A stretch of DNA of 13,350 nt from an uncultured Porphyromonadaceae bacterium. GTDB lineage: Bacteria; Bacteroidota; Bacteroidia; Bacteroidales; Muribaculaceae. Positions 7,429 to 10,986 of the stretch are shown piece after piece (the stretch's first letter is position 1; each line of letters starts with the position of its first letter). The position numbers and the translations under genes are program-made. Under the pieces are notes generated by a model. The model was not told the origin of the DNA, did not search any database, and was given only the letters and a program-made list of their open reading frames with translations. The stretch spans positions 1-13,350 of the forward strand of contig CAMWKC010000032.1 of NCBI GenBank assembly GCA_947174735.1, given 5' to 3'.

Positions 7429-7911
7429 TTATGCAGGATAATTAAGATTACTTTCATCAGGATTGGAAAGTGTCTCGTCAAGATAGCGTCTTGCAGCCCC
7501 GCGTGCACCCTCGAGATCCATAAAGGTATAATTGCCGCAGTCGCGTGCCGAGGCTCCCGGTATCTCACCCTCGTAACCGGCTATAAATTTCATAGTGTCG
7601 CGCATCAGCGGCAGAATATCGCGGCTTTGCAGGTCGCCGTTCAACAGCAGGTAATTGCCGGTACAGCAGCCCATCGGTCCCCAGTAGACTACGCGTGAGG
7701 CCCATTCAGGATCGTTGCGCAGATAGGTAGCTGCCAGATGTTCCATAGCATGGAGAGCCTCGGGAGACAGAGCAGGTTCACGGTTAGGCCGTGTCATGCG
7801 TATGTCGAAGGTAGTAATAACATCGCCTGATGGCGTTGTATCTTTGCGCGATACATAGACGCCTGGCTCAAGACGTGTATGGTCGATAGTGAAACTTGCT
7901 ATTTTTTTCAT
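7429..7911 (-). CDS. luxS: S-ribosylhomocysteine lyase LuxS (AI-2 synthase)
   Basis: LuxS cleaves S-ribosylhomocysteine to homocysteine and DPD, the precursor of the signal AI-2. It thereby recycles the S-adenosylhomocysteine left by methylation. The 160-residue length is normal. Metal ligands are His54 and His58 (HAMEHL) and Cys125 (RDCGNY). The catalytic base Glu57 and the catalytic cysteine Cys82 (GPMGCCTGNY) are present, as are His11 and the FDIR..RPN segment. The position after the catalytic cysteine is Cys and Asn follows Gly, where many LuxS proteins have GCRTGFY. This is a mild departure and does not touch the known catalytic residues. The ATG lies 2 bases after the stop codon of the upstream glycosidase-like gene, so translation is probably coupled. 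The nucleosidase acting just before LuxS (Pfs/MtnN) is not in this window. Confidence 0.96.
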   Translation of the reverse strand: MKKIASFTIDHTRLEPGVYVSRKDTTPSGDVITTFDIRMTRPNREPALSPEALHAMEHLAATYLRNDPEWASRVVYWGPMGCCTGNYLLLNGDLQSRDILPLMRDTMKFIAGYEGEIPGASARDCGNYTFMDLEGARGAARRYLDETLSNPDESNLNYPA

Positions 7912-7913
7912 AT

Positions 7914-8870
7914 TTATTGTCTGAATACCAGCAGTGGTGCCGGTAATGGTGTGTCATTATATTTAACGTATTTCTGACGTAGCCGGTCTGTGATATGAGC
8001 GGCGCCTGTTGAATCGCGATAGAAGGTATAGCTGTTACCTCCGGTGAGATAGATAGCATCTGTAAGACCGTATTCCCGCATTGCGTCGGCAAAGTCGTAC
8101 ATAGTTTCTTTGTGGCGGGTCACAATGTAGTACAGTTGGTCGTCAGCATCACGTGCTATGGCAGCACGTTCCACTTTGCCATGCAGATGGAAAGATGAAG
8201 GCAATTCGCCATCGCCGAGCAATACATATTGCCGAAAAAAAGAACCTCCGTTTTGTGCTGTATAATCCGCGACTTTATCAGATAGCGAGATGCCTGTAAC
8301 GGGTCGTCCTGACTTGGAGATAGCCAGATAGCCCTGACGCGATTTACGTTCTTTGGAATTGACTTTCCGGCCTTCATTCACTACTGTGCCGATAAGTGAA
8401 CCGTCGGAATGATAGTCGGCACTGCGTGTGAAAAGTACAAGTGTTCTGTCGGCAGTATCAGGTAATTCCGTCTCCAGTGAAGCTCTTAGTCCTTGGAGCG
8501 GATAGATTTCCATAGCTACTCCCAATACGCTGTCCGAAATCATTTCTGTGCCTTTGGCGGTTGGTATGAAGGGTTGTTGCAGTTTTTCGATATTCTCTCT
8601 GTCACTGACACTCACAGGTACTTCGGTCTCCATGAGGCTATACCGGAATATCCACAGCAGAACACCTGCTATAAGTATTGTCGTCAGTAGACTAAGTATC
8701 AGTAAAATATTCTTTTTTCGCTTAGGCTGTTTACGAGTAGCCCCGAAGTATTCTTCATTCCCGTAACTGCTATCCGAACTATTCTCGATACTGATTACAG
8801 GTATATCGACCGGTCTGTCGTCAGGACGCGGTGTCTCGGTTACCTCAATCACTCTTTGCTCGGTCTTCAT
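7914..8870 (-). CDS. Membrane-anchored phosphodiester-glycosidase (NAGPA)-like protein
   Basis: This 318-residue protein starts with a polar stretch of about 50 residues, then a basic KRKK flank and one membrane segment (about 54-76), suggesting a type II anchor with the C-terminal domain outside the cytoplasmic membrane. The C-terminal half resembles the NAGPA/phosphodiester glycosidase fold. It has a strand pair GYLAISKSGRPVTGIS (180-195), an NGGSFF segment (207-212), RAAIARDADDQLYYIV (235-250) in place of the usual R-T-A-x-G block, and YGLTDAIYLTGGNSYTFYRD (267-286) in place of the usual L-D-G-G-G-S block. The family removes sugar phosphodiester caps, but here the canonical DGGGS is TGGNS, so activity and substrate are uncertain. 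Its start overlaps the LytTR gene by 26 bases and its stop is 2 bases from luxS, which indicates an operon. The fold assignment is by eye. Confidence 0.7.
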   Translation of the reverse strand: MKTEQRVIEVTETPRPDDRPVDIPVISIENSSDSSYGNEEYFGATRKQPKRKKNILLILSLLTTILIAGVLLWIFRYSLMETEVPVSVSDRENIEKLQQPFIPTAKGTEMISDSVLGVAMEIYPLQGLRASLETELPDTADRTLVLFTRSADYHSDGSLIGTVVNEGRKVNSKERKSRQGYLAISKSGRPVTGISLSDKVADYTAQNGGSFFRQYVLLGDGELPSSFHLHGKVERAAIARDADDQLYYIVTRHKETMYDFADAMREYGLTDAIYLTGGNSYTFYRDSTGAAHITDRLRQKYVKYNDTPLPAPLLVFRQ

Positions 8871-9225
8871 ATTCGTCCATTTCTTTTTTAAGTTCCTTCA
8901 GAGAGTCGCGTCCGAGCTTATCCATGCGCAGCATTGGCAGTGAAGTCGATATAGTATGACCACCGAACTTTATGAGTCGGCCGGGTACATTGACTACGCG
9001 GATATGACGCTTGTTGACAATAAGGCTTCTTCCCACACGTGTGAACGTATTGTGTCTGAGTCGGGCGAAATATTCCTCGAAGTAATGTAGCTGGAATGTC
9101 ATGTTATGTGTCGACCCGTTTGAGAGCACAAGGTCACAATAGTTGCCGTCAGCCATAATATAGACTATTTCGTCTACGGCGACGCGTACAATTTCTGATG
9201 CAGTGGATATTTTCAGCCATTCCAT
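8845..9225 (-). CDS. Stand-alone LytTR-domain DNA-binding regulator
   Basis: This predicted transcription factor consists of little more than a LytTR domain. From the ATG at 9225 it is about 126 residues. Typical features are VDEIVYIMADGNYCDLVLSNG near the start, FTRVGRSLIVNKRHIRVVN (the conserved R-x-x-S-x-x-V-N block) and a charged C-terminal tail. No receiver domain or membrane segment is present, so the input signal is unknown. The reading frame stays open to a TTG at 9300. I prefer the ATG at 9225 because GGAA lies about 6 bases upstream, the LytTR domain begins right after it, and the in-frame ATG at 9285 lies within a hairpin arm. The gene overlaps the next by 26 bases and is probably read with luxS. 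LytTR proteins usually bind paired direct repeats about 21 bp apart; such a pair is at 9817-9850. Confidence 0.88.
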   Translation of the reverse strand: MEWLKISTASEIVRVAVDEIVYIMADGNYCDLVLSNGSTHNMTFQLHYFEEYFARLRHNTFTRVGRSLIVNKRHIRVVNVPGRLIKFGGHTISTSLPMLRMDKLGRDSLKELKKEMDEYEDRAKSD

Positions 9226-9282
9226 ATTATTTCCATAACGCCCGGAAGGTGAAATTAATTGCTTTGTAAAGTATCTGTTTTG

Positions 9283-9324
9283 CATAATCGGCCGGGTCAA
9301 TTCTGTTTGACCCGGCCGGTTATG
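9283..9324 (-). terminator. Large hairpin between the small secreted gene and lytTR
   Basis: An 18-position stem (9283-9300 with 9307-9324) is interrupted only by one G-T/G-U position and closes on a 6-base loop. Its core is GGCCGGGTCAA paired with TTGACCCGGCC. It begins 14 bases after the stop codon of the small secreted gene. No U tract follows on either strand, so it is not a classical terminator. It may be a partial terminator, an RNA-processing or 3'-end-stabilising element, or an attenuator that sets the ratio of the first gene to the regulator downstream. Confidence 0.6.
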
Positions 9325-9337
9325 GCATGGATATTCG

Positions 9338-9721
9338 TCAGAGATATTGGTTCACGAGCTGTTTGAAGAGTTTACGGGCCTGTGCGAAAGAGGTGCTGTA
9401 CACACGCTTGCCCTTTACACTGTTGACGATACGGAAGCTTGTCGACTGCAGTGAGGCAAGATCGCTGACGTTATAACCGTTGAGGTCACACTCCGAATAG
9501 ATTTCACACTGGTCTCCGTTTTTCTGGTAGTAGACCGTAATCTGGCGTCCGTCGCCGAGCGTCGCGGTCTGTTCGACCACTATCGAAACAGGAATGAGCG
9601 AGAGCAGTGACTTCTGTTCTGTCGGCTGAGCCGGAGCGGGAGCTGCCTGTGCTGCGGGTGCCGATACGAGAGTAGCCACGAGGATAGCGAGCGATGCGAA
9701 GATTGAAACGAGTGGCTTCAT
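9338..9721 (-). CDS. Small secreted protein of unknown function
   Basis: From the ATG at 9721 this is a 127-residue protein. A clear Sec signal peptide spans about residues 1-26 (hydrophobic core IFASLAILVATLV, cleavage likely after AAQA), followed by an Ala/Pro-rich linker and a mature domain of about 90 residues. The mature part has TLGDGRQITVYYQKNG, two cysteines six residues apart (Cys72 and Cys78), and a basic C-terminal helix ending in LFKQLVNQYL. I do not recognise a family. The frame is open up to a TTG at 9745, but the ATG is preferred because the signal peptide starts there. It has the strongest promoter of the region and is the first gene before the hairpin, lytTR, glycosidase-like gene and luxS. 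A direct repeat upstream suggests control by the LytTR protein. It could be an abundant envelope protein or a signal precursor; nothing decides this. Confidence 0.82.
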   Translation of the reverse strand: MKPLVSIFASLAILVATLVSAPAAQAAPAPAQPTEQKSLLSLIPVSIVVEQTATLGDGRQITVYYQKNGDQCEIYSECDLNGYNVSDLASLQSTSFRIVNSVKGKRVYSTSFAQARKLFKQLVNQYL

Positions 9722-9769: not shown

Positions 9770-9801
9770 CAAAATTAGTACCTGTCCGTCGCTGCCCCAA
9801 A
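9770..9801 (-). promoter_or_regulatory. Promoter of the small secreted gene
   Basis: On the minus strand TTTG (9801-9798) is followed after exactly 20 bases by TAATTTTG (9777-9770), a full match to the Bacteroidota -33/-7 consensus TTTG-N(19-21)-TAnnTTTG. Transcription should start near 9763, about 40 bases upstream of the ATG at 9721. Confidence 0.82.
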
Positions 9802-9816
9802 TTTTCAGACACACTA

Positions 9817-9850
9817 TGTATGAAGCCGTTGGTTTAGTGTATGAAGCCGT
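9817..9850 (-). promoter_or_regulatory. Paired 13-bp direct repeat, candidate LytTR operator
   Basis: The 13-mer TGTATGAAGCCGT occurs at 9817-9829 and again, without a mismatch, at 9838-9850 (ACGGCTTCATACA on the minus strand). The copies start 21 bp apart, two helical turns, so both face the same side of the DNA. The nearer copy ends 15 bp upstream of the -33 element of the promoter at 9770-9801, a place where activators bind. LytTR regulators such as AgrA and BtsR recognise direct repeats with about this spacing. The LytTR gene lies one gene downstream. The link is inferred. Confidence 0.62.
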
Positions 9851-9864
9851 AATTTTTATACCTT

Positions 9865-10986
9865 TTACAGTCTGTCGACCCCGTCATCGAAAGCGGTTGA
9901 CCGAGCTTTATTAACAACTCTATCCCCTTCAGCATTGACTATTGTCCCTTCTGGTATCAGGAAAGAAAACCCTTTTCCTGATTTAGGTACAATACCTCCG
10001 AAATCAACTGTTAGAACCCAATGATCACATTCTTGTTTAAGTACGGGTATAGCTTCGCTCAGTATATCGTAAGTGGCTTCTGAATTATTATAGGCTATTT
10101 CGACAAGATATATTGGCTTATCTGGTATAAGCATAACAGGGCTATTATAATAAAAGCTCACTTCATTGATTACCGCTGGGTGTTCGTCAAAATAACTACA
10201 GTAGTAATAAGAGGGATATTGTAAAGGCTTTTCGTACCCACCGACAAAATCCAATACTGCTTCACGACTTAGCAGATCTTCTCTACGACCGCAGGCACTA
10301 CCAGCTTGTAGTACTATACGGTAATTGACACCTTTCTCGAAATGTAGTTTTTCTCCGAAGTCAAGAAACGCTGATCCAAGGTTCCAGTCACTGTTTATAT
10401 TGGCAGGATAGGTACGCACCAGTTCTCCTTCACGATATAATTCCCATTCAGGATTACCTACTGGTGATGCCTCCAGACCTAAAGTGCAGCTTATACACTG
10501 CTCGCTTATAATCTGACATCCGTTATAGAAGGGACCAAAATTTGGTTCTCCAAGATCAGCTGGTACCATAAATGGCAATAGGAGTTCATCGTTTGTGATA
10601 GTTAAGTCTTTACTAAGTCTAATACTACCTGGGGCTACATACAATTTATATGTTTTGCCTAAAGGCAGGTATTCACCTGAAAAATTTATATATACCCAGC
10701 CCTGCGTCCAATTTTGTCCTACATAGTTGTCTGTTTTGAAAGAAACAGCACGGGCTATTTCTTTACCGTCACAGATAACGTAAGCTTGGGCTTTATCCGT
10801 AAGTTCGATTTTTCCGTCAAAAGACAGAGTAAACATGTTAAGAGGCCCGTCTAACGGGTGGTCAAAAGTGCCTCCTAATGTACCGCTTTCGAGGTAGCAG
10901 TGCTCAGGCAACAAGCCTGAGGCAGTACATAGCGCTGGCATAATTACCAGCGTTATACCTGCGAAAAGTCGAAGTAATTTGTCCAT
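9865..10986 (-). CDS. Secreted protein with three Ig-like repeats, function unknown
   Basis: This 373-residue protein begins with a Sec signal peptide (about residues 1-23, MDKLLRLFAGITLVIMPALC). The mature part seems to consist of three similar beta-sandwich units at about 45-140, 160-245 and 272-357. Each unit starts with a strand of the type FTLSFDGKIELTDKAQAYVI, or NEVSFYYNSPVMLIPDKPIY in the third. Each ends with a block such as LGKTYKLYVAPGSI, FEKGVNYRIVLQAGSA or KGFSFLIPEGTIV. This pattern is like the SbsA/Big_5 Ig-like domains found in Bacteroidota surface proteins. No lipobox, catalytic motif or C-terminal sorting domain is evident, so it is probably periplasmic or surface-exposed and structural or adhesive. 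The gene is visibly more AT-rich than its neighbours, hinting at a different history. It has its own promoter and no clear terminator before the next gene. Confidence 0.8.
   Translation of the reverse strand: MDKLLRLFAGITLVIMPALCTASGLLPEHCYLESGTLGGTFDHPLDGPLNMFTLSFDGKIELTDKAQAYVICDGKEIARAVSFKTDNYVGQNWTQGWVYINFSGEYLPLGKTYKLYVAPGSIRLSKDLTITNDELLLPFMVPADLGEPNFGPFYNGCQIISEQCISCTLGLEASPVGNPEWELYREGELVRTYPANINSDWNLGSAFLDFGEKLHFEKGVNYRIVLQAGSACGRREDLLSREAVLDFVGGYEKPLQYPSYYYCSYFDEHPAVINEVSFYYNSPVMLIPDKPIYLVEIAYNNSEATYDILSEAIPVLKQECDHWVLTVDFGGIVPKSGKGFSFLIPEGTIVNAEGDRVVNKARSTAFDDGVDRL

Follow-up and report, generated by a model that had tools for sequence, protein, structure and literature searches.

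Which regulator acts at two identical direct repeats that stand before a promoter in the 13,350-nucleotide stretch of an uncultured Muribaculaceae bacterium analyzed here (contig CAMWKC010000032.1; hereafter the window), and what controls that regulator? Our analysis makes it highly probable that the repeat pair is the operator of a LytTR protein that lacks a receiver domain and is encoded close by (8845-9225, minus strand), and pair and protein are proposed to form part of a switch at the adjoining promoter which would be controlled by a membrane partner. The two parts of this answer differ in strength: the placement of LytTR at the repeat pair is well supported by sequence comparison, and the control of LytTR by its partner is a good hypothesis. 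The geometry of the site, its recurrence, the linkage of the genes, the domain matches and the tail motifs of the partner are seen in the sequences themselves.

The repeat pair, its promoter and the LytTR protein

As the sequence-only reading had reported, the perfect 13-mer direct repeats TGTATGAAGCCGT at 9817 and 9838 are identical in both copies, with starts 21 bp apart. Read on the minus strand, which is the strand of the genes, they form ACGGCTTCATACA-N8-ACGGCTTCATACA, with the distal copy at 9838-9850 (core TTCATACA at 9838-9845) and the proximal copy at 9817-9829 (core at 9817-9824). About 2 × 10−4 perfect 13-mer repeats at one fixed offset are expected in 13,350 random bases (our own arithmetic), and therefore, a chance origin of the pair is very unlikely. 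The pair is intergenic, between the end of an upstream gene (9865) and a small gene (9721-9338), and the 34-mer with its 8 inner bases left free occurs only once in the window's genome. Vegetative promoters of Bacteroidota have the consensus TTTG-N19-21-TAnnTTTG. The promoter of the small gene satisfies this pattern and reads TTTG-N20-TAATTTTG, with the −33 box TTTG at 9798-9801 and the −7 box TAATTTTG at 9770-9777, both on the minus strand. The −33 box starts 15 nt past the proximal core, the distance given before, and the −7 box lies 39 nt past the repeat pair; a sigma-70 scan of the sequence was uninformative. What had to be corrected is the core, for which ACGGCTTCA had been proposed: the part that recurs in related genomes is TTCATACA on the minus strand. 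Of the 9 window-type loci, 7 keep the ACGG ahead of it in the distal copy; the proximal copy keeps it more rarely.

The product of lytTR (126 amino acids [aa]) belongs to the LytTR family by a PF04397 profile match above the curated cutoff and by its fold. It had been described as receiver-less, and indeed, Pfam gives LytTR alone on the 126 aa, also when the protein is read from an earlier TTG start. With the N-terminal receiver domain absent, it is not a response regulator of the AgrA/BtsR type. Five LytTR proteins are encoded in the window's genome; the other four carry a receiver, and that of the window is the sole receiver-less one. A fold search matched its model to the DNA-bound structure of AgrA (3BS1), whereas a PDB sequence search with the same protein returned no LytTR relative.

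Recurrence of the site and its link to LytTR genes

Relatives that keep lytTR and lose the repeats or their spacing had been named as evidence that would speak against a LytTR operator. All seven other syntenic loci, found by a LytTR protein search in 150 genomes (G045, G027, G033, G077, G052, G085, and G032), keep the pair at exactly 21 bp with 13 to 15 of 16 bases matching and with a TA-box 39 to 41 nt downstream. The box reads TAATTTTA in G085, and in G045, both repeat copies are altered alike, to TTTATACA. G469, which was found through the motif, has a perfect pair. In G039 and G079, the small gene stands elsewhere near lytTR, and there the site sits before the small gene; G057 has an exact pair before the small-gene homologue and a second pair on the opposite strand. 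The pair precedes a divergent gene in G022 (15/16), G070 (16/16), and G054 (15/16), and no TA-box is found at the usual distance past the pair in the latter two. The spacing itself was examined in 11 loci picked on LytTR homology alone: a relaxed site, searched at offsets 15 to 29, matched 14 times at 21 and 4 times in total over the 14 other offsets (0 to 2 matches each). Furthermore, some lytTR genes of other Bacteroidales have this site immediately in front of them.

A search of the 150 related genomes for TTCATACA-N{3,33}-TTCATACA gave 74 pairs, with spacer 13 as the mode (24 pairs). Read with no −7 box demanded, these pairs have TAnnTTTG 39 to 41 nt downstream in 10 of the 24 cases and, with one mismatch (CAATTTTG or TAATTTAG), in 4 more. 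A second peak at spacer 15 (17 of the 74 pairs) was set aside: 14 of the 17 fall within four 23-bp tandem arrays, which are apparently elements of another kind, and LytTR is absent from all seven loci read. In L129, L130, and L132 (G005:C150, G052:C108, and G079:C144), such 23-bp arrays, composed of TTCATACA-N15 units, precede genes that resemble one another and whose products begin GAVLIEGP.W.GKTT or nearly so and look ATPase-like by eye; no LytTR was found in these three array stretches. A composite search for TTCATACA-N13-TTCATACA followed by a perfect TAnnTTTG at 25 to 54 nt, run on 397 genomes of the family, gave 33 matches in 26 genomes and none in the reversed control. The distance was 39 nt in 18 matches, 40 nt in 9, and 41 nt in 3, so that 30 of the 33 lie at 39 to 41 nt; the P value calculated for this clustering presupposes distances spread evenly over 25 to 54 nt. 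The window's genome has exactly two composite sites: that of the window, and another on contig C64 that precedes a gene for an M23 peptidase and is likewise found in G045. In three loci (L104, L166, and L189 of G051, G409, and G226), an inverted repeat of the form CCCGGCAAA...TTTGCCGGG surrounds the −33 position, between the pair and the −7 box. The target proteins of these loci share a YYW[KR]T motif, and the L104 target, the only one of the three checked singly, had no Pfam match.

The link between site and regulator was followed with a profile built from 21 LytTR domains, rather than with Pfam, for the detection of LytTR genes in the loci. A LytTR match is present in 18 of the 19 genomes with a spacer-13 pair versus 39 of the 131 without (P = 5 × 10−8 in a Fisher test, which counts related genomes as independent) and in 6 of the 26 that have other spacers only. 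Among the 30 of the 74 pair loci that were used, LytTR genes are near 5 of 11 spacer-13 pairs versus 0 of 19 pairs with other spacers. At composite sites of the family genomes, a LytTR gene lies within 2.5 kb in 12 of 30 cases. A species-wide scan for composite sites at 39 to 41 nt, with one genome for each of 84,980 species, gave at least 117 stretches, 80 of which are listed; by our own arithmetic, which assumes even base use, chance alone would give about 0.1 sites across all of these genomes. Seventy-seven of the 80 listed names presumably belong to Bacteroidales (two of them were looked up), and the other three say only Bacteroidetes, Bacteroidia, or bacterium; since TAnnTTTG itself favors Bacteroidota, the absence of other phyla says little. 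LytTR genes occur in 42 of the 80 listed loci, within 2.5 kb in 38 of them.

Target families were assigned for 73 of 85 distinct target open reading frames, picked by script and by eye as likely genes, so that some are perhaps misassigned; the tally lists 25 of the 34 matched families. LytTR itself is the commonest (14 of 73), followed by WG repeats (7), DUF4846, M23, and CHAP (3 each), Sel1 (2), CreD and NlpE (1 each), and others. CreD is the predicted target in G064 by Pfam (L103:6193-7497), and an L,D-transpeptidase (YkuD_2) lies behind the minus-strand pair of G057. In G022 (L126), the divergent neighbor of lytTR is likewise CreD as judged by eye.

Several observations weigh against the proposed operator. 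The spacer-13 pairs lack TAnnTTTG at the expected distance in 10 of 24 cases, including L111, L114, and L115, which adjoin lytTR, and the composite search required a perfect −7 box. The lytTR gene of G078 has only a 12/16 pair, 2.1 kb upstream, and 39 of the 150 genomes have a LytTR match but no exact spacer-13 pair. A scan of the window's own genome for pairs 21 bp apart, which the sequence-only reading had recommended, stayed at noise level when the pair was sought by itself and 3 mismatches were allowed (37 versus 40 in the control); when a −7 box was also required at 39 nt, two exact sites and a third with 3 mismatches remained, versus 0 in the control. Moreover, the operator and activation by LytTR are predictions from sequence comparison. 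Finally, LytTR genes are missing within 2.5 kb of 18 of the 30 composite sites and from the stretch read at 38 of the 80 listed loci; the regulators of such sites therefore act from a distance or are others. Those missing genes would also suit a different explanation, according to which the pair is the operator of another regulator that merely shares the neighborhood. We regard it as the least probable of the alternatives, because LytTR presence tracks the spacer-13 pair by genome and by locus, because the site stands directly before lytTR in 14 of 73 targets, and because direct repeats separated by 11 to 13 bp before a promoter are a layout of LytTR systems, according to Zou et al. 2018 (PMC6193735). 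The recurrence of the composite site, the seven syntenic loci, the lytTR genes among the targets, the receiver-less LytTR next to the site and its AgrA-like model make the LytTR operator a strong reading.

The membrane partner and the proposed switch

On the minus strand, the small gene is followed in turn by lytTR, the NAGPA gene, luxS, and an 869-aa open reading frame (7288-4679) that we take, by eye, for mutS. The NAGPA gene (7914-8870, minus strand, 318 aa) overlaps lytTR by 26 nt and encodes the candidate partner, a protein with a short, presumably cytosolic tail containing PVISIE, one predicted transmembrane helix and a NAGPA ectodomain. Its model has a low-confidence tail, a helix at 51-74, and a NAGPA fold that matches 6pky and 3ohg; hydropathy also indicates a transmembrane segment. 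With a partner defined as a protein of at least 200 aa that has a hydrophobic helix within its first 120 residues and whose gene overlaps lytTR or lies at most 11 nt behind it, 58 of the 63 distinct LytTR genes that had enough sequence behind them are followed by one. Pfam detected NAGPA in 46 of the 56 partners scanned (56 of 59 partner references were used), and DUF2154, the domain of HdrM, in none of the 56 at E 0.01. A short tail motif of the PVxIE or DDEIRII type is present in 53 of the 56, by patterns drawn up after the sequences had been seen; among 46 close relatives, conservation is 0.72 in the tail-motif box, 0.23 in the linker that follows, and 0.67 in the ectodomain. One partner from the Prevotellaceae (L270:4720-5913) has a penicillin-binding transpeptidase ectodomain and no NAGPA, behind an NDELQVLG tail. 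The conservation of the tail motif and the different ectodomain behind the same tail type suggest that the tail contacts LytTR and that the ectodomain is exchangeable.

The role of the partner is less secure than that of the site. Five of the 63 LytTR genes have no such partner (L099 is of the receiver type by eye; L195, L220, and L244 have none; L237 has an FHA protein instead), 10 of the 56 partners have no NAGPA match at E 0.01, and inhibition by the partner is proposed by analogy to Streptococcus mutans. LytTR might bind the repeats without being controlled by the NAGPA protein, which would then be just one of the enzymes of the operon, and the output would depend solely on the amount of LytTR. 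This is unlikely in our judgment, but it has points in its favor, as the ectodomain has the fold of the NAGPA enzymes and the contact between LytTR and partner is a prediction. The close placement of the two genes in 58 of 63 cases, the tail motif kept in 53 of 56 partners beside an unconserved linker, and the transpeptidase partner with the same tail type all argue for a partner that acts on LytTR.

From these data, we infer LytTR binding, promoter activation and control by the partner. LytTR, as a dimer or tandem pair, would occupy both TTCATACA half-sites from a single face of the DNA, two turns apart, contact RNA polymerase near −33 in the manner of AgrA and activate the promoter, whose start lies 15 nt further on. 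The promoter would drive the small secreted gene and, past a hairpin, also lytTR and the membrane partner; with lytTR itself among the predicted products, a positive feedback loop would be closed. The tail of the partner would hold LytTR inactive until the ectodomain senses an envelope signal. Repression by the bound LytTR, for instance, by blocking an upstream element, is quite improbable, if a shade less so than another regulator at the pair: whether LytTR activates or represses does not follow from position alone, but whenever a −7 box accompanies the pair, the repeats sit ahead of −33 at a near-fixed distance, a layout like that of the AgrA- and HdrR-activated promoters in PMC4227749 and PMC6193735.

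The hairpin bears on the feedback loop. It is GC-rich, lies at 9289-9318 (minus strand) between the small gene and lytTR, and may be an attenuator or terminator; the folding of 9270-9337 gave −30.1 kcal/mol (z −7.35), and a T-run is absent. An inverted repeat resembling it is visible in G045. Expression of lytTR by readthrough, as suggested earlier, is kept as a possibility, but transcription would have to pass this hairpin, which may uncouple lytTR from the promoter; hence, lytTR is perhaps only partly read from it.

The small gene (9338-9721, minus strand) is the predicted first target. It encodes 127 aa with a signal-peptide-like N terminus (by eye), a Pfam scan of the protein gave no match, and its homologues stand downstream of the site in related loci. 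In G077 (L121:4754-5365), the small secreted protein is doubled, with two domain copies in one open reading frame. Directly 3′ of the partner gene lies luxS (7429-7911, minus strand). A general role in luxS regulation was considered and dropped, because among 19 related loci checked, only G045 and G469 have luxS behind the operon; one of the 19 has less than 200 nt of room at that position. Upstream of the site, a gene for a 373-aa protein (9865-10986, minus strand) has a signal-peptide-like start, and Pfam and NCBIfam scans of its product gave no match. The named relatives of the window proteins are Muribaculaceae.

Relation to known LytTR systems

AgrA of Staphylococcus aureus and BtsR of Escherichia coli resemble the system of the window in the LytTR fold and in two direct repeats upstream of a promoter. 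Their repeats are offset by close to 21 bp, the BtsR site being ACCRCTYA-N13-ACCRCTYA, and AgrA is a response regulator with a receiver domain. The same holds for BtsR (PMC5552118), whereas the window LytTR has no receiver. The proximal AgrA repeat is centered near −60 (PMC4227749).

Closer in gene content are the LytTR Regulatory Systems (LRS) HdrRM and BrsRM of S. mutans. According to PMC6193735, a membrane protein restrains the LytTR activator there, and the activator also acts on the operon that encodes it, by way of repeats just ahead of the −35 box. The window shares with them a membrane protein gene adjacent to the LytTR gene. It differs in its partner, which is predicted to span the membrane once and has a NAGPA ectodomain and a conserved tail on the presumed cytosolic side, and in its site, where TTCATACA-N13-TTCATACA is coupled to a Bacteroidota −33/−7 promoter. 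Inhibition by a membrane protein and feedback belong to S. mutans; by analogy, the NAGPA protein may be the restraint on LytTR here, and the position of the site would be compatible with positive autoregulation by LytTR. The same paper describes LRS-like operons in Bacteroides thetaiotaomicron and Bacteroides ovatus. There, direct repeats of a LytTR system precede by 11 bp a promoter whose end is TATCTTTG, but their LytTR protein itself has transmembrane segments, their NfeD-like and DUF2154-containing membrane protein is encoded upstream, and the B. thetaiotaomicron repeat is TCCGGTATTCA-11 bp-ACCGGAAATCA. These Bacteroides examples differ from the window in site, gene arrangement and proteins. 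Our literature search, which covered titles and the openings of abstracts and mostly left aside subscription papers, found no description of a LytTR-NAGPA pairing or of the TTCATACA site.

A transmembrane switch of this kind might extend across the Bacteroidales, a proposal to which we give slightly less than an even chance. A receiver-less LytTR would be held at the membrane by the short cytosolic tail (DDEIRII or PVxIE type) of a single-pass protein whose ectodomain responds to glycans of the cell envelope, and its release would fire TTCATACA-N13-TTCATACA promoters; the ectodomain would usually have the phosphodiester-glycosidase fold and once that of a penicillin-binding transpeptidase, and the targets would be wall enzymes, small secreted proteins and the operon itself. 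For this order, which is dominant in the gut, the site would provide a DNA code of a LytTR regulator family that can be read from sequence, and regulons could therefore be listed genome by genome, with the membrane partner of LytTR named as the candidate controller.
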